From Synergistaceae bacterium (GTDB lineage Bacteria > Synergistota > Synergistia > Synergistales > Synergistaceae): 32,580 nucleotides of DNA. Both the position numbers and the translations under genes were made by a program. The stretch is from contig JAISZL010000059.1 in assembly GCA_031269245.1 (NCBI GenBank), positions 1 through 32,580 of the forward strand, in the 5' to 3' direction. Shown here piece after piece: positions 1,088 through 30,481 of this stretch (positions within the stretch are counted from its first letter, which is position 1; each line of letters begins with the position of its first letter). The notes under the pieces were generated by a model, which saw only the letters and a program-made list of their open reading frames with translations, was not told the DNA's origin and did no database searches.

Positions 1088-1313
1088 TTCCGTCCTCCTT
1101 AATACTTACAGCTACTGTCACGGGGAGCACGTTTCCAAAATAAGCGTAACACTCTTTAATATGGTTAAAAATCAAGGGGTTTGTTTTCTTGAAGTTTTCA
1201 AGGATTTCATTCTTTTCCGTCTCTAATAAAACAGTTTCGTTTGCCATAACAGTACTTCCATTACAATAATATGCTTCTTGTGCGTTTTCACTTGGCAATT
1301 GAATTTTCCTCAT
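1074..1313 (-). CDS. Small protein of unknown function in the RM operon
   Basis: 79 codons from ATG 1313 (an in-frame TTG at 1319 is the alternative). It overlaps the end of the methyltransferase gene by 26 bp and the beginning of the SDH-like stub by 14 bp, so it is read as part of one translationally coupled operon. The protein is soluble-looking and acidic, with a helical middle (ETEKNEILENFKKTNPLIFN) and a hydrophobic C-terminal strand (VLPVTVAVSI). I do not recognise a domain. Its base composition is AT-rich like the rest of the island. A control (C) protein is unlikely because no helix-turn-helix can be seen. Confidence 0.5.
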   Translation of the reverse strand: MRKIQLPSENAQEAYYCNGSTVMANETVLLETEKNEILENFKKTNPLIFNHIKECYAYFGNVLPVTVAVSIKEDGTDGQ

Positions 1314-2220
1314 AGTCAATTTCTAATTGCAGCATTTTCCGCGAATATTTATCTTTGACTCCTTTAAGGAATTTTCCCACAGCATCAGGATGATTTTTCA
1401 GGAACCATTCTATATGATTCTCAACGTATTCTTTTCTCACAACATTGTCGTTTAAGTCATTTGGTACCCGCTCCATTCTCTCATCAATACTGTCAAATCC
1501 GTGAAACGAGCGTTCCAATCTTTCTTTGATTAGAGAAATGTATTGTTCGTTAATTTCAATTCCTACACCCCGTCTATTTGTTTGTTGGCAAACTCGTAGA
1601 GACGTTCCAGAACCACAAAAGGGATCAAGAACTAAATCATTTTCATCAGAAGAAGCTAAAATCATTCGTTCAAATAGCGCTTCTGGTTTCTGTGTAGGAT
1701 GGTTTTGACGATTAGTTTGACAATAGTGGACGTGAGAAAACTCCCAAACATTACCAGGATTTGCGCCCCGCATATTATTTATGCTACGGTAATATTTCTG
1801 TGGTATCCTAATTGCGTCAAGGTTGAATTTGAATTTATTATTTTTAACAAACATCAAAATGTCATCGTGCCTTGGACTAAAACCTTTTTTTTTGCCAATA
1901 CCTTGTGTATAATTCCACGTAATCCAAGAATTGAATATAAATTCCAGATCTTTTTCTAATATTGCGTATATATACGAAATATAGCGCACTCCCATAAATA
2001 AGTATATTGTGCCAGTCGGCTTCAACACTCGTTTTGCTTCATTAAGCCATTTACGTGAAAAAGACAAATACTCATCATGTTTTAAGTTATCGTTGTTATT
2101 ACCGTAATCTTTAGAAAGATTATATGGCGGATCAGTCGCTATTAAATCAACCGTCTCGGATTTCATATTACCGAGAACATCAAGACAATCGCCTAAGATG
2201 ATTTCTATTCTTTTATCCAT
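1288..2220 (-). CDS. DNA adenine-N6 methyltransferase, beta class (HpaI-like)
   Basis: 310 residues. Catalytic motif IV DPPY is at 30-33, followed by N34. The SAM-binding motif DPFCGSGT is at 199-206, and HPTQKPEALFERMILAS lies just before it. Catalytic motif before SAM motif defines the beta class of N6-adenine methyltransferases. The central stretch with SPRHDDILMF and NNMRGANPGNVWEFSHVHYC is the target-recognition part, and from memory it resembles M.HpaI (GTTAAC). A tail of about 60 residues follows the usual core. The gene overlaps the end of the nuclease gene by 16 bp (2205-2220). It protects host DNA from that nuclease. Class is certain from motifs; HpaI specificity is inferred. Confidence 0.88.
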   Translation of the reverse strand: MDKRIEIILGDCLDVLGNMKSETVDLIATDPPYNLSKDYGNNNDNLKHDEYLSFSRKWLNEAKRVLKPTGTIYLFMGVRYISYIYAILEKDLEFIFNSWITWNYTQGIGKKKGFSPRHDDILMFVKNNKFKFNLDAIRIPQKYYRSINNMRGANPGNVWEFSHVHYCQTNRQNHPTQKPEALFERMILASSDENDLVLDPFCGSGTSLRVCQQTNRRGVGIEINEQYISLIKERLERSFHGFDSIDERMERVPNDLNDNVVRKEYVENHIEWFLKNHPDAVGKFLKGVKDKYSRKMLQLEIDYEENSIAK

Positions 2221-2969
2221 TTGTTTTTCACCGCTTCCCTATACCAATCATCAATTGTACGGCGTGATGAATTAAGATATTTTTTATCCAAAAGCTGGCA
2301 AAATTCCCAAGTTGTTCTGTATTCATATTCTACATAATGAATATCTTTGATCTGAATCTGTCCAGTACCTAATGCCGGATTATAATTTATATCCACTTCG
2401 GAGATATATTTCAAATCGTAGGCATTATACCTTACAATTTCCATAATACCATCTATAAGTTTGGTTTGTGGATTTTTCCCAGAATAAACTTTGTGTTTTA
2501 ACGAAAGGATAATAAACATAAAATCAGGATCTTCAATATATGCGGAACGAATTCTACTGAACGACGTAATATTGGGTCCTTTACCGGAACTCTCAATATC
2601 TTCGGCGGTTGCTTTTGCGTCAACATTTGCTGTTATCGTTGAATTGCTCTTTTTAAATTGGAGTAAAACATCTGCCATATCAAGGCGTGGTCTTGATTCC
2701 ACATTAACCAAGTGATAAACATTATCAACATTGTCTCTTATGTCATGAAAAATTTCAAAAGCCCACGCCTCAATAATTGGACCAGCAATTTTGTTTATAT
2801 TCTCCATTGGCAAACCTAATTTTAAATTAGTATTTAAAATTATTTTATTATTCCCTTTTGCGATTGCATCACGGATAATGGACTCTATAGCCTCTACTAC
2901 AAAATGAGAATCATCTTGATATGATTCGTTTTCCTTTGGTATTTTAAAACGAAAACCATTATATTCCAT
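2205..2969 (-). CDS. Type II restriction endonuclease, HpaI-like
   Basis: 254 residues from ATG 2969, chosen because a GAGGG Shine-Dalgarno lies six bases upstream; the in-frame ATG at 2975 abuts that site. The layout fits a PD-(D/E)xK nuclease: D100, then D117-A-K119 in NVDAKA. GLPMENINKIAGPIIEAWAF and NPALGTGQIQIKDIHYVEYE match my memory of R.HpaI, which is also about 254 residues, so the expected target is GTTAAC. This is unverified recall. It is the first gene of the operon, with the methyltransferase immediately downstream and overlapping. The gene is clearly more AT-rich than the chromosome beyond 3.7 kb, suggesting horizontal transfer. Confidence 0.8.
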   Translation of the reverse strand: MEYNGFRFKIPKENESYQDDSHFVVEAIESIIRDAIAKGNNKIILNTNLKLGLPMENINKIAGPIIEAWAFEIFHDIRDNVDNVYHLVNVESRPRLDMADVLLQFKKSNSTITANVDAKATAEDIESSGKGPNITSFSRIRSAYIEDPDFMFIILSLKHKVYSGKNPQTKLIDGIMEIVRYNAYDLKYISEVDINYNPALGTGQIQIKDIHYVEYEYRTTWEFCQLLDKKYLNSSRRTIDDWYREAVKNKWIKE

Positions 2970-3196
2970 AATCATCCCTCAACAATAAAACAGTCATACC
3001 CTAAAATTCGTTCGGGTTGGAGTAAGAAGCACTCTGAATTCCCCTCTGCATACTACCACGATATCAAACGTGAGACAATCAGTACCTGATGAAGTAATCT
3101 AACCGGCTCCATCCCCTGTTTCTCTCCAATCGTTCGACCTGACTCCGGGAATCAGCGATGTTTTGGATACGCCCACTGTCGCTTGTTATCTCTGAA

Positions 3197-7910: not shown

Positions 7911-7939
7911 TTGACATCTTTTGAAACGAGTGGTAATAT
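7911..7939 (+). promoter_or_regulatory. Near-consensus sigma-70 promoter of the por operon
   Basis: TTGACA (7911-7916), 17-bp spacer, TAATAT (7934-7939). The predicted transcript starts near 7946, about 24 bases before the leader ORF. This is one of the strongest promoters visible in the window. A hairpin CACCCCGGC/GCCGGGTG (about 7846-7871) lies upstream. Confidence 0.8.
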
Positions 7940-7969
7940 CAAAGAGATTTCGGGAGAGGGAGGATCGTC

Positions 7970-8053
7970 ATGTCAATCAGGCACAGCAGGGCACAGCAGG
8001 GCATAATAATAATTATTGGCAGCGCGGCTCCCCCTCGCGGGATCGGCGTTTAG
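7970..8053 (+). CDS. Leader peptide with Ile5 run (por operon attenuator)
   Basis: 27 codons, ATG 7970 to TAG 8051. It has a strong Shine-Dalgarno AGGGAGG (7957-7963) at six-base spacing and lies directly downstream of a near-consensus promoter. The peptide begins MSIRHSRAQQG, then five consecutive isoleucines (codons ATA ATA ATA ATT ATT, 8003-8017), then GSAAPPRGIGV; 7 of 27 residues are Ile. Its stop precedes an intrinsic terminator and a competing hairpin. This is the classical arrangement of an amino-acid leader peptide (as in ilv, leu and his leaders). Ribosome stalling at the Ile codons should prevent termination and allow por transcription. Small, so codon statistics cannot prove it; the positions of all elements together make it convincing. 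Confidence 0.72.
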   Translation: MSIRHSRAQQGIIIIIGSAAPPRGIGV

Positions 8054-8083
8054 CGCCGTTTACAGAGCGAGCGGATTGGAGCC
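8026..8083 (+). promoter_or_regulatory. Candidate antiterminator pairing
   Basis: GGCTCC (8026-8031) can pair with GGAGCC (8078-8083), and CTCGC (8034-8038) with GCGAG (8067-8071). The inner loop holds a small hairpin CGGCG/CGCCG (8044-8058) around the leader stop codon. This pairing uses the left arm of the terminator and therefore excludes it. A ribosome held at the first Ile codon would leave 8026-8038 free; a ribosome at the stop would cover part of it. Read by eye, no folding energy computed. Confidence 0.55.
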
Positions 8084-8113
8084 CTTCGAAGTGAGAGGGG
8101 CTCCAATTTTTTT
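8075..8113 (+). terminator. Intrinsic terminator inside the por leader (attenuator)
   Basis: A perfect 10-bp stem ATTGGAGCCC (8075-8084) / GGGCTCCAAT (8098-8107) with a 13-base loop, followed by a run of seven T (8107-8113). It stands between the promoter and the first structural gene (8151), so it must be conditional. Confidence 0.85.
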
Positions 8114-8150
8114 GTCTGATTCATAATTTTTCGAGGAGGGGAACAAATAT

Positions 8151-8735
8151 ATGGTTAGCGCAATGGACGGCACAATAGAGGTGCGGTGGCACGGAAGAGG
8201 AGGGCAGGGGGCGAAGAGCGCCTCGGCCGTCCTGGCCGAGGTTCTGTTCCACGAGGGCAAGTACGTGCAGAGCTTCCCGGAGTACGGGGCGGAGCGGCAG
8301 GGCGCGCCGATACGGGCGTACAACAGGGTGTCCAACAGGCCGATACGGCGCCGTTGCGGGGTCGAGAACCCCAACATAGTGGTGGTGGTGGACCCGACGA
8401 TGATCGAGAGCGCGAACCCCAGCGAGGGCTGCGCGGACGACGCTATATACCTCGTCAACACCGCGCTTGACGCCGGCGATCTTCGCCGCAGGCTCAAGAT
8501 ATCCGATTCGGCCAGGGTGCTGGCGGTCGACGCCACCAAGATAACGATAGAGGAGCTGGGGCAGAACAGGCCCAACGCGCCGATCCTGGGCGCCCTCTCC
8601 CGCGTATTCGCCGACGTCCCCGCCGAGGTTTTCGCGGACCACTTCACGAGGAAGATGAAATCCCTCCCGCCGAAAGCGCTCGAAGCGAACCGGCGGGCCA
8701 TCATGCGCGGCCGCGCGGAGGCGACGCTGGCATGA
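8151..8735 (+). CDS. porC: 2-oxoacid:ferredoxin oxidoreductase, gamma subunit
   Basis: 194 residues; ATG 8151 is preceded by GAGGAGGGG. The family signature RWHGRGGQGAKSASAVLAE is near the N-terminus, then SFPEYGAERQGAPIRAYNR, and NIVVVVDPTMIES. This is the gamma domain that in POR/VOR enzymes helps bind CoA. With the delta, alpha and beta subunits it forms the enzyme that oxidatively decarboxylates a 2-oxoacid to acyl-CoA, CO2 and reduced ferredoxin, or runs in reverse. The sequence resembles pyruvate-type (porG/porC) gammas, but 2-oxoisovalerate enzymes share very similar gammas, so substrate is open. First structural gene of the operon, after the Ile leader; its stop overlaps the next start (ATGA). 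Confidence 0.9.
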   Translation: MVSAMDGTIEVRWHGRGGQGAKSASAVLAEVLFHEGKYVQSFPEYGAERQGAPIRAYNRVSNRPIRRRCGVENPNIVVVVDPTMIESANPSEGCADDAIYLVNTALDAGDLRRRLKISDSARVLAVDATKITIEELGQNRPNAPILGALSRVFADVPAEVFADHFTRKMKSLPPKALEANRRAIMRGRAEATLA

Positions 8736-9130
8736 GCCGGGTCAAGGGGGGCGTGAGTTGGAGGAGAGTACCGCCTGGCACCATTTCGTTCGGCGCATCG
8801 GCGATGGAGGTCGAGACTGGGCTGTGGCGCAGCATGAGGCCGGTTCTGGACCGGGAGAAGTGCGTCTCCTGCCTCAAGTGCTGGGTCCAGTGCCCCGACG
8901 CGTCCGTAGTGGTTGACGAAAGCGCCCGCGTCGTAGGCATAAACGAGTACTTCTGCAAGGGTTGCGGCGTGTGCCGGGCCGTGTGCCCGGTCGGGGCGAT
9001 AACGATGCGCCCGGAGTCGGACTTCATTGAGTGCGGCGCGCCGGAATGCCGCGGCGAGGGTTCGCCGGATGAGGCGGGTACTCGTGTGCTCAAGCCTGGA
9101 ATGGTGGGTGAGTTGGTTGGATTGCGGTGA
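8732..9130 (+). CDS. porD: 2-oxoacid:ferredoxin oxidoreductase, delta subunit (2x[4Fe-4S])
   Basis: 132 residues, start ATG 8732 overlapping the gamma stop by four bases. It contains two ferredoxin-type cluster motifs: CVSCLKCWVQCPD and CKGCGVCRAVCPVGAI. The N-terminal WRRVPPGTISFGASA is typical of por delta subunits. It carries electrons from the thiamine-diphosphate site to external ferredoxin. The C-terminal ~25 residues after the second cluster (ECRGEGSPDEAGTR onward) look like a lineage extension; the family is usually about 100 residues. Confidence 0.92.
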   Translation: MSRVKGGVSWRRVPPGTISFGASAMEVETGLWRSMRPVLDREKCVSCLKCWVQCPDASVVVDESARVVGINEYFCKGCGVCRAVCPVGAITMRPESDFIECGAPECRGEGSPDEAGTRVLKPGMVGELVGLR

Positions 9131-9173: not shown

Positions 9174-10340
9174 ATGACCTCCGGCAACCTGGCCTTCGCC
9201 GAGGCGATGAGGCAGATCAACCCTGACGTGGTCGCGGCGTACCCGATAACGCCGTCCACGGAGATACCGATGCGCTTCGCGGAGTACGTCGCCAACGGCG
9301 AGGTTGACACGAGATATGTAGCGGTCGAGAGCGAGCACTCGGCGATAACGGCCTGCGTGGGGGCCTCCGTGGCCGGAGGGCGGGTCATGACCGCGTCGTC
9401 GGCCAACGGGGTGGCCTTGATGCACGAAATTTTCCCGATAGCGGCCTCGTTCAGGGCGCCCATAGTGTTCGGGCTCGTCAACAGGAGCTTGGGAGCGCCG
9501 GTCAACATCCACTGCGACCACTCCGACAGTATGCCGGAGCGGGACTCTGGATGGGTGCAGATATACTGCGAGGACGCGCAGGAGGTGTACGACACCGTGA
9601 TGCTCTCCGTCCGCTTGGCCGAGCACCCCGACGTGCTGACCCCGGTGTTCGTCTGCCAAGACGGCTTCATAACGAGTCACTGCTACGAGCCGGTGGAGTT
9701 TCTCTCCGACGAGGCGGTGAGGAGTTTCGTGGGGGCGCGCGAACCGCGCTACCCCCTGCTTGACGTCGAGAACCCCGTGTCATACGGCTCTTTCACGATG
9801 TCCGAGTACTACTTCGAGATCAAGAGGAACCAGATAGAGGGGCTGAACCACGTACAGCGCGTTTACGGAAAACTTTCGAGCGAGTATTTCGCGCTCTCCG
9901 GGCGGGAGTATCCGGTGATCGACCGCTACATGTCGGACGATGCGGATTACGTGGCGGTGATAATGTCGTCGGCCGCCGGCGTCGTGAAGGACGTTGTGGA
10001 CGACCTGCGCGGGGACGGCGTCCGCGCCGGCTGCATACGGGTCAGGATGTACAGGCCGTTCCCGGCGATGGAGCTCAGGGAGGCGCTGCGCGGGAAGAAG
10101 TGCGTTGCCGTGCTCGACAGGAGCGCTTCCCCGGGCGGTACGGCGCCGCTCGCGGCCGAGGTCAAGTCCGCGCTCTACATGCAGCCGGACAGGACGCCGG
10201 TGTTCGACTACATCTTCGGCCTTGGCGGACGGGACTTCTTCCCCAGCGACGCCCTGCGCGTCTTTCAGGACATGATGGAATTCCGTTACGAGGACGGCGC
10301 GCGCTACATAGGGCTTTTGGAGGAGGATGATCAGGAATGA
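9174..10340 (+). CDS. porA: 2-oxoacid:ferredoxin oxidoreductase, alpha subunit
   Basis: 388 residues from ATG 9174 (MTSGNLAFAEAM), where homology begins. The frame is open further upstream but overlaps porD in unrelated sequence. Key motifs: VVAAYPITPSTEIP, VAVESEHSAITACVGASVAG, TASSANGVALMHEIFPIAA and CDHSDSMPERDSGWVQIY, then FVCQDGFITSH. C-terminal domain II includes DRSASPGGTAPLAAEVKSAL. Alpha forms the pyrimidine-binding half of the thiamine-diphosphate site with beta. The gap after porD is 43 bases with only a weak ribosome site. Substrate (pyruvate versus branched-chain 2-oxoacid) cannot be fixed by reading alone. Confidence 0.92.
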   Translation: MTSGNLAFAEAMRQINPDVVAAYPITPSTEIPMRFAEYVANGEVDTRYVAVESEHSAITACVGASVAGGRVMTASSANGVALMHEIFPIAASFRAPIVFGLVNRSLGAPVNIHCDHSDSMPERDSGWVQIYCEDAQEVYDTVMLSVRLAEHPDVLTPVFVCQDGFITSHCYEPVEFLSDEAVRSFVGAREPRYPLLDVENPVSYGSFTMSEYYFEIKRNQIEGLNHVQRVYGKLSSEYFALSGREYPVIDRYMSDDADYVAVIMSSAAGVVKDVVDDLRGDGVRAGCIRVRMYRPFPAMELREALRGKKCVAVLDRSASPGGTAPLAAEVKSALYMQPDRTPVFDYIFGLGGRDFFPSDALRVFQDMMEFRYEDGARYIGLLEEDDQE

Positions 10341-11293
10341 GCGGGGTTCGTCTCAAGGATCTTGCGGGCAGGAAAAACCCCCTCACCGAGGGGCATAGGA
10401 TGTGTCCCGGCTGCGGCTCGCCGACAGCGCTGAGGCAGGCCTTCATGGGGATTGATGACCCGGTGGTCGTTGTGGGCGCGACCGGCTGCATGGAGGTGTC
10501 TAGCACCGTGTATCCGTACAGCGCGTGGCGCGTCCCCTTCATGCACGTGGCGTTCGAGAACGCGGCGGCGGCCATCTCAGGGGTTGCGGCGGCCCACGAG
10601 GTACTCGCTCGGCGCGGCGCCGCGAGGAAAGATATAAAATTCGTCGCGTTCGGCGGCGACGGCGGGACGTACGACATCGGGCTCCAGGCGCTGTCGGGCG
10701 CGCTGGAGCGCGGGCACGACTTCACCTACATCTGTTACAACAACCAGGGCTACATGAACACCGGCGCGCAGAGGAGCGGCGCCACGCCCCGCGGCGCGAA
10801 CGCGACCACGTCGCCGGCCGGCAGGGTCCTCGGCGGCAAGCTCGAGCGCCCGAAGAACATGACCGAGATAGCGGCGGCCCACGATATCCCCTACGCGGCC
10901 CAGACTACGCTCCACAACCCCGCCGACCTGATCTCCAAGGTGCGGCGGGCCGTGGAGACGCCCGGCCCCGCGTTCGTGAACGTACTGACGCCGTGCGCCC
11001 TCTTCTGGAAGATAGAGCCGAGCGACCAGGTGAAGATCTGCTCCCTCGCCGCGGACACCAGATTCTGGCCCGTCTACGAGGTTATAGACGGCCGTCACGT
11101 CCTGTCGTACACGCCCAAGAACCCGAGGCCGCTGGAGGATTTTCTGCGGGCGCAGGGCCGCTACGCCCACCTCTTCAAGAAGGGGGAGGAGAGGGCCGAC
11201 CTGATAGCCCAGGCCCAGCGGGACGTAGACGAGGATTGGGAGAAGCTGCTTGGGAAGTGCTCGCGATCGGCTCTCACCTCAGCCTCTTCATAG
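10337..11293 (+). CDS. porB: 2-oxoacid:ferredoxin oxidoreductase, beta subunit (TPP-binding)
   Basis: 318 residues; start overlaps the alpha stop (ATGA). GHRMCPGCGSPTALRQAF and GATGCMEVSSTVYPYSAW supply cluster-binding cysteines. GDGGTYDIGLQAL (Asp108) with YNNQGYMNTGAQRSG is the thiamine-diphosphate/Mg motif. TPCALFWKI holds a further conserved Cys. It completes the heterotetramer encoded by porCDAB. The stop codon (11291-11293) lies 20 bases inside the 3' end of the opposing sdaA gene, so the two transcripts converge with no room for a terminator between them. Confidence 0.93.
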   Translation: MSGVRLKDLAGRKNPLTEGHRMCPGCGSPTALRQAFMGIDDPVVVVGATGCMEVSSTVYPYSAWRVPFMHVAFENAAAAISGVAAAHEVLARRGAARKDIKFVAFGGDGGTYDIGLQALSGALERGHDFTYICYNNQGYMNTGAQRSGATPRGANATTSPAGRVLGGKLERPKNMTEIAAAHDIPYAAQTTLHNPADLISKVRRAVETPGPAFVNVLTPCALFWKIEPSDQVKICSLAADTRFWPVYEVIDGRHVLSYTPKNPRPLEDFLRAQGRYAHLFKKGEERADLIAQAQRDVDEDWEKLLGKCSRSALTSASS

Positions 11294-25831: not shown

Positions 25832-26989
25832 ATGAGGAGAATTTCAGCACTGGTTTTGGTCCTTGTTTTTTGTATCGGAGGTACCGCTTTGGCGGCCGCA
25901 AACGCCAAGGAACCGGTTATCAAGATAGGCGTGATAGCGCCTCTCACCGGAGGGGTGGCGGTGTATGGGACGGCCGCCAAGAACGGCACGGAGCTCTACA
26001 CGAAGATGTTCAACGCCGCGGGTGGGATTGGCGGCACCAAGATCGAGCTGGTGGTTTACGACGACAAGGGCGACCCGACTGAGGCGCTCAACGCCTACAA
26101 CAAGCTCGTTAACGCGGACCAGGTGGCAGCTATTATCGGCCCGGTGACGAGCGCGCCGACCTTTGGGGTCGCGGAGGCGTCGGCGGCCGACAACATACCG
26201 GGGATCACGGGCACCGCAACCCATCCCGACGTCACATCCTACGGCAAGCACTTCTTCCGCGCCTGCTTCGAGGATCCGTTCCAGGGCGGCACGATGGCCA
26301 AGTTCGCGTTCAACAAGCTGAACGCCAAGACGGCCGCCGTCATCTACAACGTCTCCGACGCCTATTCGACGGGGCTTTACAACGCGTTCGCCGTGAGCGC
26401 CGCCGAGGCTGGGCTCAAGATAGTGGGAGCGGAGAGCTACACGACCGACGACGTCGACTTCAACGCGCAGCTCACGCGCATAGCCGGCCTGGCGCCGGAC
26501 GTGCTTTTCATGCCGGATTACTACAACAGGGTGTACCTCATCTCCTCGCAGGCGAGGAAGGCCGGCATCAAGTCGACGTTTTTGGGCGCGGACGGTACGG
26601 ACGGAGTTCTGGAGATAGAGGGGGCCGACTACTCGGTGTTCGAGGGCCTTTATTTCGCCAACCACTACTTCAGCGACGACCCGTCGAAGCTCGTGCGGGA
26701 CTTCCGCAAGAATTACGAGGCCGAATACGGCACTACCCCCAACTCGTTCGCGTCCTTGGGCTACGACTCCGCCCTGATACTCTACGACGCGATAGCGAGG
26801 GCCGCGGCGGACGGCGTGGAGATCGGGGCGAACGCAAAGTCGTACCAGGCCATCATCGACAAGATGACGGCAACGGACCTCGACTGCGTGACCGGGCACA
26901 TCGTGTTCAAGGACAACAATCCGATAAAGGACGTCGCCATCATCAAGATCCAGGGCGGTAAGTACGGCTTCGAGGGTAAGTACAAGTAA
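25832..26989 (+). CDS. livK: Branched-chain amino acid binding protein (periplasmic)
   Basis: 385 residues, ATG 25832. Signal peptide MRRISALVLVLVFCIGGTAL with likely cleavage after AANA; the Cys is not in a lipobox. Type I binding protein of the LivJ/LivK family: IKIGVIAPLTGGVAVYGTAA, VVYDDKGDPTEALNAYNKLV, AAIIGPVTSAPTFGVAEA, TGTATHPDVTSYGKHFFRAC. It captures Leu/Ile/Val or related amino acids in the periplasm and delivers them to LivHMGF. A GC-rich hairpin in the 135-base gap to livH may stabilise this cistron. Confidence 0.93.
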   Translation: MRRISALVLVLVFCIGGTALAAANAKEPVIKIGVIAPLTGGVAVYGTAAKNGTELYTKMFNAAGGIGGTKIELVVYDDKGDPTEALNAYNKLVNADQVAAIIGPVTSAPTFGVAEASAADNIPGITGTATHPDVTSYGKHFFRACFEDPFQGGTMAKFAFNKLNAKTAAVIYNVSDAYSTGLYNAFAVSAAEAGLKIVGAESYTTDDVDFNAQLTRIAGLAPDVLFMPDYYNRVYLISSQARKAGIKSTFLGADGTDGVLEIEGADYSVFEGLYFANHYFSDDPSKLVRDFRKNYEAEYGTTPNSFASLGYDSALILYDAIARAAADGVEIGANAKSYQAIIDKMTATDLDCVTGHIVFKDNNPIKDVAIIKIQGGKYGFEGKYK

Positions 26990-27047
26990 GTCGGGGGCAG
27001 GGGCGCTCCGCATACGCCCGAAACATTCCCGACATGCACGCAAGGCA

Positions 27048-27081
27048 GGCGGCGGGCCGAGGGAACGCGGCGCCCGCCGCC
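27048..27081 (+). other. Intercistronic hairpin between livK and livH
   Basis: 10-bp perfect stem GGCGGCGGGC (27048-27057) / GCCCGCCGCC (27072-27081), 14-base loop, no T-run. A smaller GGGCG/CGCCC hairpin sits at 27001-27019. The position is typical of mRNA-stabilising or partial-termination structures that raise binding-protein levels over permease levels. Confidence 0.6.
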
Positions 27082-27124
27082 GATTGATTTCATCATTGAT
27101 AATCCCAACAAAGGACTGTTTGGC

Positions 27125-27997
27125 ATGACTCTCTTGTATCTGATGATAAACGGGCTTCAGATAGGAAGCATATACGCGCTTGTGGCGCTGGGCTACAGCA
27201 TGGTCTACGGCATAGTGAAGCTGGTCAACTTCGCGCACGGGGAGATCATCATGGTGGGGGCGTACAGCATGTGGTACGTCATGTCCCGCTTCTCGGTGCC
27301 GGCCTGGCTCGCGGCAGCGCTCTCGGTGGCGATATGCTCCGTCCTCGGCATGTTCATAGAAAAAATCGCGTACAAGCCGCTGCGCAACTCCGACAGGCTG
27401 TCGCTCTTGGTGACGGCGATCGGCGTGAGCCTGCTGCTGCAAAACCTGGCGCAGCTATTCTTCACCGCGAACCCGAGGATGTTCACCAACATATTCGCCG
27501 GGACCGTGACCATAGGCGAGCGCCAGTTTTCGAACGCCACTACCGTCACCATCGCCGTGTCGACGATAATCATGATCGGCCTGACGCTCCTGGTCAAGCG
27601 GACGAAGATCGGCAAGGCGATGCGAGCCGTCTCGGAGGACAAGGAGACCGCGACCCTCATGGGCATCAACGTAAACAACACCATATCGTTCACGTTCGCG
27701 CTCGGCTCGGGTCTGGCGGCGGTCGCGGCGGTGTTCTACTGTTGCTCTTACTCGCAGATACAGCCGACGATGGGCGGGATGCTGGGGCTCAAGGCCTTCG
27801 TCGCCGCCGTCCTGGGGGGGATAGGCTCCATCCCGGGAGCGATGATAGGCGGACTGTGCATCGGCATAGCAGAGAGCCTCACCAAGGGCTACATAAGTTC
27901 CAAACTCACCGACGCCGTCGTTTTCGGAATACTGATAGTCGTGCTGCTCATAAAGCCCTCCGGGATACTAGGCAGACGCCAGAACGAGAAAGTGTAG
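27125..27997 (+). CDS. livH: Branched-chain amino acid ABC transporter permease LivH
   Basis: 290 residues, ATG 27125 with AAAGGA upstream. Multi-pass inner-membrane permease: NGLQIGSIYALVALGYSMVY, GIVKLVNFAHGEIIMVGAY, MRAVSEDKETATLMGINVNN (the EAA-like loop that contacts the ATPases), GLKAFVAAVLGGIGSIPGAM. Pairs with LivM to form the translocation channel. Confidence 0.95.
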   Translation: MTLLYLMINGLQIGSIYALVALGYSMVYGIVKLVNFAHGEIIMVGAYSMWYVMSRFSVPAWLAAALSVAICSVLGMFIEKIAYKPLRNSDRLSLLVTAIGVSLLLQNLAQLFFTANPRMFTNIFAGTVTIGERQFSNATTVTIAVSTIIMIGLTLLVKRTKIGKAMRAVSEDKETATLMGINVNNTISFTFALGSGLAAVAAVFYCCSYSQIQPTMGGMLGLKAFVAAVLGGIGSIPGAMIGGLCIGIAESLTKGYISSKLTDAVVFGILIVVLLIKPSGILGRRQNEKV

Positions 27998-28006
27998 GTC
28001 CTTCGC

Positions 28007-29020
28007 ATGAGCGCCCTGTTCAAATCCAACCCATTCAGATACTCCCTCAACGCGGTTTCCGTCGCGGGGCTTTACGCCGTCATCATGTTTCTCATAGAAA
28101 CCGGGGTCTTGAATCGCTATCAGGCGTTGATGCTCATACCCATAGGCTTCAACATAATACTGGCGGTGAGCCTCAACCTGACCGCCGGCTTTCTGGGCCA
28201 GCTCCCACTCGGGCACGCGGGCTTCATGTCCGTCGGAGGGTACGCCGCGGCGCTCTTTTCGATGTCCGCCAGTCTGCCCACCAACGTGGAGCTTCCGCTG
28301 GCGCTCGCCGTGGGATGGATCGTCGCGGCAGCCTTCGGGCTCGTCATAGGGCTTCCCGCGCTTCGCCTGAAGGGGGATTACCTGGCGATAATAACGCTGG
28401 GGTTCGGCGAGATAATAAGGGTCATAATACTCAACCTCAAATTCACCGGGGGCGCTTACGGCCTCAAGGGCATCGGCAGGCAGACGACCGTCACGTGGGT
28501 GTACATCTGCGTGGTCATAACCCTGTTCATTATCGGCGCGCTGATAAAATCGCGGCACGGCCGGGCGATAATCTCCATACGGGAGGACGAGATAGCCGCC
28601 GAGGCGTCGGGCATACCCACCACCTACTACAAGGCGCTGGCCTTCACCGTGTCGGCCGGTTTCGCCGGGGTGGCCGGGGGGCTTTACGCGCACTACCTGA
28701 GCATAATGGACCCGTCGTCCTTCGGCTTCATGCGGTCGGCCGAGATACTTGTGATCGTGGTTTTAGGCGGCCTTGGCTCGATCTTCGGCTCCGTGGTGTC
28801 GGCCATAGCCCTGACGATCCTGCCGGAGGCGCTGAGGGGCTTTTCGGACTACCGCATGGTCATCTACTCCCTGCTCCTGGTGGCTGTCATGATCTTCAAG
28901 CCGTCCGGTCTGTGCGGCAGGTACGAGTTTTCGCTGGGCGACACGATAGACGGGCTCTGCTCCAGGATACGCGGCGCCCTGTCGGGGAAGGGGGGCGGCG
29001 GCGATGGCGGCGGTTCTTGA
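28007..29020 (+). CDS. livM: Branched-chain amino acid ABC transporter permease LivM
   Basis: 337 residues, ATG 28007, nine bases after livH. Family motifs: NIILAVSLNLTAGFLGQLPL, GHAGFMSVGGYAAALFSM, GLPALRLKGDYLAIITLGFG, ISIREDEIAAEASGIPTTYY (ATPase-contact loop), LVIVVLGGLGSIFGSVVSAI. The C-terminal tail ends in a Gly-rich stretch (GKGGGGDGGGS) that overlaps livG by 17 bases and is shaped by that gene's ribosome site. Confidence 0.95.
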   Translation: MSALFKSNPFRYSLNAVSVAGLYAVIMFLIETGVLNRYQALMLIPIGFNIILAVSLNLTAGFLGQLPLGHAGFMSVGGYAAALFSMSASLPTNVELPLALAVGWIVAAAFGLVIGLPALRLKGDYLAIITLGFGEIIRVIILNLKFTGGAYGLKGIGRQTTVTWVYICVVITLFIIGALIKSRHGRAIISIREDEIAAEASGIPTTYYKALAFTVSAGFAGVAGGLYAHYLSIMDPSSFGFMRSAEILVIVVLGGLGSIFGSVVSAIALTILPEALRGFSDYRMVIYSLLLVAVMIFKPSGLCGRYEFSLGDTIDGLCSRIRGALSGKGGGGDGGGS

Positions 29021-29792
29021 CGTCTCGAACCTGGGGATAAACTTCGGCGGCCTTCAGGCGCTGGACGACTTCAACATACAGGTGCGCAGCCGCGAGATAG
29101 TGGGGCTGATAGGTCCCAACGGCGCGGGTAAGACGACTGTGTTCAACCTGCTGACCAACGTCTACCACCCATCGAAGGGCGGCATATCGCTGACCGGGCG
29201 CAACACACTGGGGAAGGCCACGCACGAGGTCACAAAATACGGCATAGCCAGGACGTTCCAAAACATACGGCTCTTCAAGTCCCTCTCGGTCATCGACAAC
29301 GTGAGGATAGCCCTGCACAACAGCATGACCTACTCGCTGCTGGAGGCGTGCCTGCGCCTGCCGAAGTACTGGAGGCAGGAGGCGGCGGCAACGAAGTTCA
29401 GCCGCGAGCTGCTGGGCGTGTTCGGCATGGAGGCCGTGGCGGACGCCCCGGCCGGGAGCCTGCCCTACGGAGCCCAGCGCCGCCTGGAGATAGTGCGCGC
29501 CCTCGCCACGAACCCGAAGGTCCTGCTGCTTGACGAGCCGGCCGCCGGGATGAACCCGTCCGAGACCTCCGAGCTGATGGGCACCATACGCGGAGTAAGG
29601 GACAAGTTCGAGGTGGCGATAATTTTGATAGAGCACGACATGAGCCTCGTCATGGGCATCTGCGAGCGGATCATAGTCCTGAACTACGGGCTCATCATAG
29701 CTCAGGGAGAGCCCGACGAGATCAGGAACAACCCGCTGGTAGTCGAGGCGTACCTCGGGCAGCAGAGGGGGAGCAGCCCATGCTCGAGGTGA
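29004..29792 (+). CDS. livG: Branched-chain amino acid ABC transporter ATPase LivG
   Basis: 262 residues, overlapping livM. Walker A GPNGAGKTT near residue 40, Q-loop region ARTFQNIRLFKSLSVIDNVR, signature variant LPYGAQRRLEIVRAL (in place of LSGGQ, as in LivG), Walker B VLLLDEPAAGMNP, and the switch His in LIEHDM. One of the two nucleotide-binding subunits driving import. Confidence 0.95.
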   Translation: MAAVLDVSNLGINFGGLQALDDFNIQVRSREIVGLIGPNGAGKTTVFNLLTNVYHPSKGGISLTGRNTLGKATHEVTKYGIARTFQNIRLFKSLSVIDNVRIALHNSMTYSLLEACLRLPKYWRQEAAATKFSRELLGVFGMEAVADAPAGSLPYGAQRRLEIVRALATNPKVLLLDEPAAGMNPSETSELMGTIRGVRDKFEVAIILIEHDMSLVMGICERIIVLNYGLIIAQGEPDEIRNNPLVVEAYLGQQRGSSPCSR

Positions 29793-30481
29793 GGGACATC
29801 AACGTGTACTACGGCGCCATTCACGCCGTCAAGGGCGTCTCCTTCGAGGTCGCGCGGGGCGAGATAGTCACCCTGATCGGCGCCAACGGCGCGGGCAAGA
29901 GCACCATCCTCAAGACCGTCTCGGGCATCCTGCGGACTCAGGGCGGGTCGATAAGTTTCATGGGCGACGAGATAAGCTCTATCGACGCCTGCAAGCTCAC
30001 CCGCATGGGCCTCTCGCACGTCCCGGAGGGCCGGTGTGTCTTCCAGCAGCTCACGGTGGAGGAGAACCTGGAGATGGGCGGGTATCTGCGAAGCGCGGCT
30101 GAGAACAGGAGAAACATCGAGAGGGTGTACGACACGTTCCCCCGCATAAGGGAGAGGAAGCGCCAGATAGCGGGGACGCTGTCCGGGGGAGAGCAACAGA
30201 TGCTGGCCCTCGGGCGCTCGCTCATGTCGGCCCCCCGGCTCGTTATGATGGACGAGCCGTCGATGGGGCTCGCCCCGGTTCTGGTGCGGCAGATATTCGA
30301 TATAATAAAGGAGATGAACGACGCGGGAACGACCATACTCCTGGTCGAGCAGAACGCCAGGATGGCCCTCTCGATCGCCCACAGGGGATACGTCCTCGAG
30401 ACGGGCAGGATAGCGCTCTCCGCTGACGCGTCTGAGCTCCTCGACAACGACGACGTGAGGCGCGCGTACCTGGGAGGCTAG
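29780..30481 (+). CDS. livF: Branched-chain amino acid ABC transporter ATPase LivF
   Basis: 233 residues, overlapping livG by 13 bases. Walker A GANGAGKST, ABC signature LSGGEQQMLALGRSL, Walker B LVMMDEPSMGLAP, then LLVEQNARMAL where Gln replaces the switch His, typical of LivF. Last gene of livKHMGF; no intrinsic terminator with a T-run follows. Confidence 0.95.
   Translation: MLEVRDINVYYGAIHAVKGVSFEVARGEIVTLIGANGAGKSTILKTVSGILRTQGGSISFMGDEISSIDACKLTRMGLSHVPEGRCVFQQLTVEENLEMGGYLRSAAENRRNIERVYDTFPRIRERKRQIAGTLSGGEQQMLALGRSLMSAPRLVMMDEPSMGLAPVLVRQIFDIIKEMNDAGTTILLVEQNARMALSIAHRGYVLETGRIALSADASELLDNDDVRRAYLGG

Follow-up and report, generated by a model that had tools for sequence, protein, structure and literature searches.

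An isoleucine-codon leader with a predicted transcription attenuator precedes a 2-oxoacid:ferredoxin oxidoreductase operon in Synergistaceae

Enterobacterial attenuators consist of a promoter, a short open reading frame (ORF) with a run of regulatory codons, mutually exclusive antiterminator and terminator structures, a 5' protector pairing and a stop codon that disrupts the antiterminator. The leader described here, upstream of the porCDAB operon of a Synergistaceae bacterium, has the same layout as the enterobacterial trp, his, ilvGMEDA, ilvBN and leu attenuators. Contrary to these, it carries a pure isoleucine run and would control a ferredoxin-dependent 2-oxoacid oxidoreductase; moreover, the C-terminus of its peptide and its RNA scaffold are conserved in sequence and reused before other operons of Synergistota. 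The uORF attenuators of Corynebacterium ilvBNC and ilvB-II, as two reports describe them (PMC10272879, PMC11857589), likewise combine a branched-chain leader peptide with alternative hairpins. They belong to another phylum and, by these descriptions, control ilvBNC instead of a 2-oxoacid:ferredoxin oxidoreductase (POR). On the side of the enzyme, the function that we propose for porCDAB, feeding isoleucine synthesis, equals that of 2-oxobutyrate synthase (EC 1.2.7.2), which makes 2-oxobutanoate from propionyl-CoA, CO2 and reduced ferredoxin (Buchanan 1969, as quoted in PMC7476758). Whereas EC 1.2.7.2 has been defined by its activity, the present proposal points, from the regulation, to one particular operon of four genes. 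In a search of the open-licence literature, neither attenuators in Synergistota nor attenuation of a POR turned up. The attenuation mechanism itself is already known; what is new is its target, the enzyme direction that this target implies and a gene candidate for an activity on record since 1969.

Synergistaceae are bacteria of the gut and of digesters. The window, i.e., the whole stretch of 32,580 nucleotides that was analysed, is contig C4 of a 2.34-Mb metagenome-assembled genome in 98 contigs, 96.7% complete. The first-pass annotation had described, upstream of porC, a promoter, a 27-codon ORF with its Shine-Dalgarno sequence six bases ahead and five isoleucine codons, an intrinsic terminator before the first gene and an alternative pairing that destroys it; each of these elements is present at the place it gave (Table 1). 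The promoter scores 10/12 and has a TG preceding its -10 box, and 0.4 such sites are expected in shuffles of the region. The folding energy of the leader RNA lies 4.6 SD below that of dinucleotide shuffles. The terminator, a stem-loop at 8073-8109 with seven T at 8107-8113, sits between the leader ORF and porC. No Rfam element (T-box, riboswitch or other) was matched in the window at gathering thresholds; the best sub-threshold match is an unrelated sRNA, with an E-value of 0.07.

Table 1 Features of the por leader and operon in the window, and aromatic leaders of the same scaffold at other loci.
Feature	Position	Strand	Details
Sigma-70-type promoter TTGACA-N17-TAATAT	7911-7939	+	-35 TTGACA 7911-7916; -10 TAATAT 7934-7939
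Shine-Dalgarno AGGGAGG of leader ORF	7957-7963	+	six bases to ATG 7970
Leader peptide ORF	7970-8053	+	MSIRHSRAQQGIIIIIGSAAPPRGIGV*, predicted translation; 27 codons; stop codon 8051-8053
Regulatory Ile run	8003-8017	+	five codons, ATA ATA ATA ATT ATT
Antiterminator helix 1, 5' arm	8026-8031	+	GGCTCC; partner 8078-8083
Antiterminator helix 2, 5' arm	8034-8038	+	CTCGC; partner 8067-8071
Nested hairpin CGGCG-TTTAG-CGCCG	8044-8058	+	arms 8044-8048/8054-8058; loop contains leader stop codon
Antiterminator helix 2, 3' arm	8067-8071	+	GCGAG
Antiterminator helix 1, 3' arm (switch element)	8078-8083	+	GGAGCC; common to terminator 5' arm
Intrinsic terminator	8073-8113	+	stem 8073-8087/8095-8109; tract of seven T 8107-8113
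porC, gamma subunit of 2-oxoacid:ferredoxin oxidoreductase	8151-8735	+	TIGR02175 174.6 bits, above cut-off; PF01558
porD, ferredoxin-like delta subunit	8732-9130	+	TIGR02179 89.4 bits, above cut-off; 4-nt overlap with porC
porA, alpha subunit	9174-10340	+	NF040682 457 bits; PF01855, PF17147; start ATG 9174 inferred, listed ORF from 9027
porB, beta (thiamine-diphosphate) subunit	10337-11293	+	NF008819 329 bits; PF02775; 4-nt overlap with porA
PaaK leader	L077:1580-1666	+	
PaaK leader	L078:1489-1587		reverse-complement coordinates
PaaK leader	L080:1582-1686		reverse-complement coordinates
PaaK leaders	L149, L162, L163		

The operon encodes an enzyme of the four-subunit POR type, with gamma, delta, alpha and beta subunits all present together with their domains. 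PorA and PorB match nearly over their full length both a four-subunit pyruvate:ferredoxin oxidoreductase (PDB 9bt4; E-values 9.6e-83 and 2.9e-76, respectively) and an oxalate oxidoreductase (PDB 5c4i; 1.4e-56 and 1.5e-58); what sets the predicted enzyme of the window apart from these two is the isoleucine attenuator. Pyruvate-synthase models score higher than ketoisovalerate models for PorA (457 vs 322 bits), PorB (329 vs 267) and PorC (175 vs 131). A separate single-chain pyruvate:ferredoxin oxidoreductase (PFOR) occurs in the same genome (contig C98). Among the genes flanking porCDAB, there is no conserved neighbour that would supply an acyl-CoA or name the substrate.

Two other regions of the window can be noted. 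Genes of a LIV-type (branched-chain amino-acid) ABC transporter lie at 25832-30481 (+), where the covariance model described below finds no leader of the por kind. The stretch at 1288-2975 (-) is AT-rich (33-36% GC vs about 60%), codes for a DNA methylase, together with a weak match to a SwaI-like endonuclease, and is adjoined by a transposase fragment at 342-857; it is probably an acquired restriction-modification unit.

We sought porC in 61 related genomes and compared the regions upstream; those relatives retrieved with porC that bear a name belong to Synergistaceae. The leader layout is kept in 19 out of 19 Synergistaceae species with available upstream DNA, whose porC is 72-100% identical; a twentieth Synergistaceae locus (L020), cut at a contig end, is outside this count. 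Five porC orthologs of other families (L021-L025, 57-60% identity) have no such leader. Judging from this distribution, the element would therefore have arisen with the Synergistaceae operon or been acquired by it. TTGACA is found with exactly 17 nt of spacing to TANNNT in all 20 orthologous leaders scored, and the terminators of the orthologs range from -17.6 to -30.7 kcal/mol. The N-terminal part of the peptide is variable (mean identity 0.55). Every ortholog has four to six isoleucine codons, whose wobble bases drift (identity 0.45-0.91) while the residue is kept; the codons that follow the run are conserved, most wobble bases included, up to a C-terminus of the AAPPR type. Among the Synergistaceae porC orthologs, there is none in which the terminator persists and the isoleucine run is lost, a case that the first-pass annotation had named as refuting; this strongly supports its isoleucine attenuator over porCDAB.

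The 3' arm of the antiterminator is at the same time the 5' arm of the terminator, so that the two structures are mutually exclusive. We computed equilibrium folds of the orthologs in three assumed states. With a ribosome set on the isoleucine run, the antiterminator forms in 21 out of 21 orthologs, with six of six arm pairs and -26 to -33 kcal/mol; with the ribosome set at the stop codon, the terminator alone remains. Without any ribosome, the terminator has a predicted probability of 0.64-0.99 and the antiterminator one of 0.00; in 19 of 20 orthologs, the antiterminator's 5' arm is then paired with the Shine-Dalgarno region. The three predicted states match the classical logic, in which the operon is on only upon ribosome stalling.

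The switch would then operate as follows. With ample charged tRNA-Ile, the ribosome would reach the stop codon at 8051-8053, open the hairpin that surrounds it and cover the 5' arm of the antiterminator; with this arm covered, the terminator at 8073-8113 would form and porCDAB would be off. Under a shortage of charged tRNA-Ile, the ribosome would stall on the run at 8003-8017, leaving 8026-8038 to pair with 8067-8083; this would deprive the terminator of its 5' arm, allowing porCDAB to be transcribed. If the leader is left untranslated, the Shine-Dalgarno region would occupy the antiterminator arm and the terminator would win. Altogether, the region before porCDAB is best explained, with good confidence, as a ribosome-mediated transcription attenuator of the classical kind that responds specifically to isoleucine. 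Its anatomy, its conservation, its compensatory changes and the recurrence of its scaffold at ilv and leu genes can be read from the DNA, and from these we infer the switching.

The por leaders are so conserved in sequence that, taken by themselves, they covary only modestly: helix 2 swaps G-C/U-A and C-G/U-A in three species (L007, L009 and L014). In the same leaders, C/T at 8032 is coupled with G/A at 8039 (columns 28 and 35 of alignment A3), giving C-G, T-A and T-G but never C-A. Position 8039 is a first codon position (Gly/Arg); the coupling may reflect a further small hairpin within the antiterminator arm, or a mere difference between clades.

To look beyond these leaders, we built a covariance model from them and ran it over 188 Synergistota genomes; leaders outside the retrieved loci were sought by this model only. 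It gives strong matches in 27 Synergistaceae genomes, and weaker ones in other families before different genes. In an alignment of 32 leaders from several gene classes, 94.7% of cells pair and double-sided compensatory changes occur at 10 of the 16 antiterminator pairs, counts that lean toward the structure because the alignment was fitted to it. Double-changed cells number 28, against 4.9 in shuffles, and 0 out of 500 shuffles reach the observed value. Sliding the register destroys the signal, and no slid register comes close. Across the 32 leaders, double-sided changes affect all five pairs of helix 2, and the nested hairpin at 8044-8058 is paired in 97.5% of cells. Helix 1 shows A-U/G-C/C-G swaps between gene classes. 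Read directly, its arms are GGCUCC/GGAGCC, GGAUCC/GGAUCC, GGGUCC/GGACCC and GGUCCC/GGGACC, and those of helix 2 are CUCGC/GCGAG, CUGGU/ACCAG and CCGGU/ACCGG. In part of the rows of alignments A2-A4, MAFFT placed the GGRGCC arm out of register, and pair counts on these alignments therefore understate helix 1; direct folding gives six of six helix 1 pairs. The upstream comparison and the alternative folds, two of the checks that came with the first-pass annotation, both agree with its attenuator, the compensatory changes being found across gene classes.

The same scaffold occurs before other genes of Synergistota. Mixed Ile/Leu/Val leaders such as MRVNNISNVINVVVVIISSGSPEVTGA precede ilvN-ilvC-ilvB, and another, MKLIKNVVLQSLVSIIIVLIISSGSPPGVIGI, precedes leuCDBA. 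The genome of the window has its own Ile/Leu/Val leader, MRYVMGLMNVIILVLVLSRGSRPRSIGA, with a terminator before ilvN, the small subunit of acetolactate synthase (L119:3775-3861 (+), on contig C63). Two sister families (f5 and f6) have leaders with isoleucine runs only, AIIIITSAAPPRRTGA and AIIIIANAAPPRGNGA, before a serine/threonine dehydratase; Ile-rich dehydratase leaders are those of loci L072, L073, L074, L075, L076, L086 and L199. No isoleucine leader was found at ilvA in the Synergistaceae loci scanned. For the sibling leaders of ilvN-ilvC and leuCDBA, the controlled genes make the amino acids that are sensed, and for porCDAB the same would hold. With its scaffold also standing before ilv and leu genes, the por leader therefore joins a set of biosynthetic attenuators, whose sign is induction by shortage.

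Locus L075 (genome G040) contains two copies of the leader; the first lies 1.4 kb upstream and precedes no more than the beginning of the dehydratase reading frame. A second leader of the scaffold family (..AVIIIISSAVPLGIGD; L085:123-203 (-)) occurs in G175, close to the end of a contig.

Leaders with phenylalanine or tyrosine runs, SFFFFFTGAGPVRRTGA, FFFFTNVGPARRIDG and YSYYYPHTDPPRGIGA, precede genes for phenylacetate-CoA ligase (PaaK). Such aromatic leaders (FFFFF, FFFF, YYY and FSFTG types), with their terminators, stand directly before PaaK genes in several families of Synergistota, an arrangement suggesting that PaaK activates arylacetates there for the synthesis of aromatic amino acids, possibly with indolepyruvate oxidoreductase.

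An operon switched on when charged tRNA-Ile is short is most likely anabolic, as degradation would call for a switch of the opposite sign. The regulation thus argues that the POR most likely works in the reductive, CO2-fixing direction for isoleucine synthesis. The por run is isoleucine only, against the mixed Ile/Leu/Val runs of ilv leaders, and its product should therefore serve isoleucine alone. Because of this, and because the same switch is found elsewhere on a dehydratase of the 2-oxobutanoate type, we favour the carboxylation of propionyl-CoA to 2-oxobutanoate, which would enter the IlvBN-IlvC-IlvD route; on regulatory grounds, we consider this choice of substrate about as probable as all others together. 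It is also favoured by the presence of IlvC and IlvD, by the higher scores of the subunits with pyruvate-synthase models and by the separate single-chain PFOR, as well as by the lack of a canonical citramalate synthase and of dehydratase orthologs detailed below. The ferredoxin-dependent carboxylation of propionyl-CoA to 2-ketobutyrate is established in anaerobes (Buchanan 1969, as quoted in PMC7476758), and a formate-lyase route may explain some cases of 2-oxobutanoate synthesis activity (PMC7476758).

As for other sources of 2-oxobutanoate, a canonical citramalate synthase (CimA, TIGR00977) scores above cut-off in none of the 61 genomes. Threonine-deaminase homologs are widespread, with three strong matches in the genome of the window (the best at 334.7 bits, below cut-off); the POR would therefore add to the supply of 2-oxobutanoate and not provide it alone. 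A mutual exclusion of the leader-bearing POR with ilvA or cimA is not clean. Orthologs of the leader-bearing dehydratase (at least 50% identity) occur only in families f5, f6 and f8; Synergistaceae have none, their best homologs reaching at most 36%.

With the same isoleucine attenuator, the enzyme could instead carboxylate 2-methylbutyryl-CoA to 3-methyl-2-oxopentanoate, to be transaminated to isoleucine. This route has been invoked for isoleucine in anaerobes such as Methanobrevibacter ruminantium (PMC2812497), and an enzyme preferring the anteiso chain would also explain an isoleucine-specific leader. We nevertheless hold this substrate to be unlikely: ilvC and ilvD are present, so that the de novo path needs 2-oxobutanoate only, the por subunits are nearer to pyruvate synthases than to branched-chain enzymes, and one acting on branched chains ought to serve valine and leucine too, which the Ile-only run does not suggest. 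The first-pass annotation had proposed a reductive carboxylation from a branched acyl-CoA to Ile/Val. Its anabolic direction gains from the scaffold before ilvN-ilvC(-ilvB) and leuCDBA; the branched route could not be established and is the less likely part, given ilvC and ilvD, the Ile-only leader on the dehydratase and the contrast between the por run and the organism's own Ile/Leu/Val leader.

In anaerobes that ferment amino acids, 2-oxoacid:ferredoxin oxidoreductases usually count as catabolic, and the nearest named relative of this one is a pyruvate synthase. It could then be a catabolic or general pyruvate or 2-oxoacid oxidoreductase, its level merely tuned by the leader in general amino-acid starvation. 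This is quite improbable, as the operon would be on under isoleucine scarcity, opposite to the need of isoleucine degradation; besides, one amino acid is sensed, sibling leaders precede biosynthetic operons, and pyruvate oxidation is covered by the single-chain PFOR. Last, although shuffles of the region give terminator-like sites about once per kilobase, an ordinary terminator of the upstream region beside a chance ORF without regulation is ruled out for practical purposes by conservation in 19 species and covariation, since every species that has the operon retains a perfect -35 box with fixed spacing, an ORF with an isoleucine run and an antiterminator that compensates, and the terminator falls within the operon's own transcript.

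Returning to propionyl-CoA as the substrate, we tentatively propose, as a reading that may well fall short, that porCDAB is a dedicated, ferredoxin-dependent 2-oxobutanoate synthase (propionyl-CoA + CO2, leading to isoleucine), holding in Synergistaceae the isoleucine-controlled place that the threonine/serine dehydratase has in sister families. It would belong to a phylum-wide attenuator regulon including PaaK, an acyl-activating enzyme switched by aromatic codons, and the anaerobes of this phylum would thereby obtain amino acids through a starvation-controlled carboxylation of acyl- and aryl-CoAs.

Here, regulation would reveal direction: an enzyme class usually called catabolic appears to be wired as biosynthetic, via a single amino acid. 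If true, concrete genes could be assigned to the ferredoxin-dependent synthesis of 2-oxobutanoate, a long-known activity of debated identity. A conserved scaffold with interchangeable codon runs would also offer a cheap readout of metabolic roles across Synergistota.
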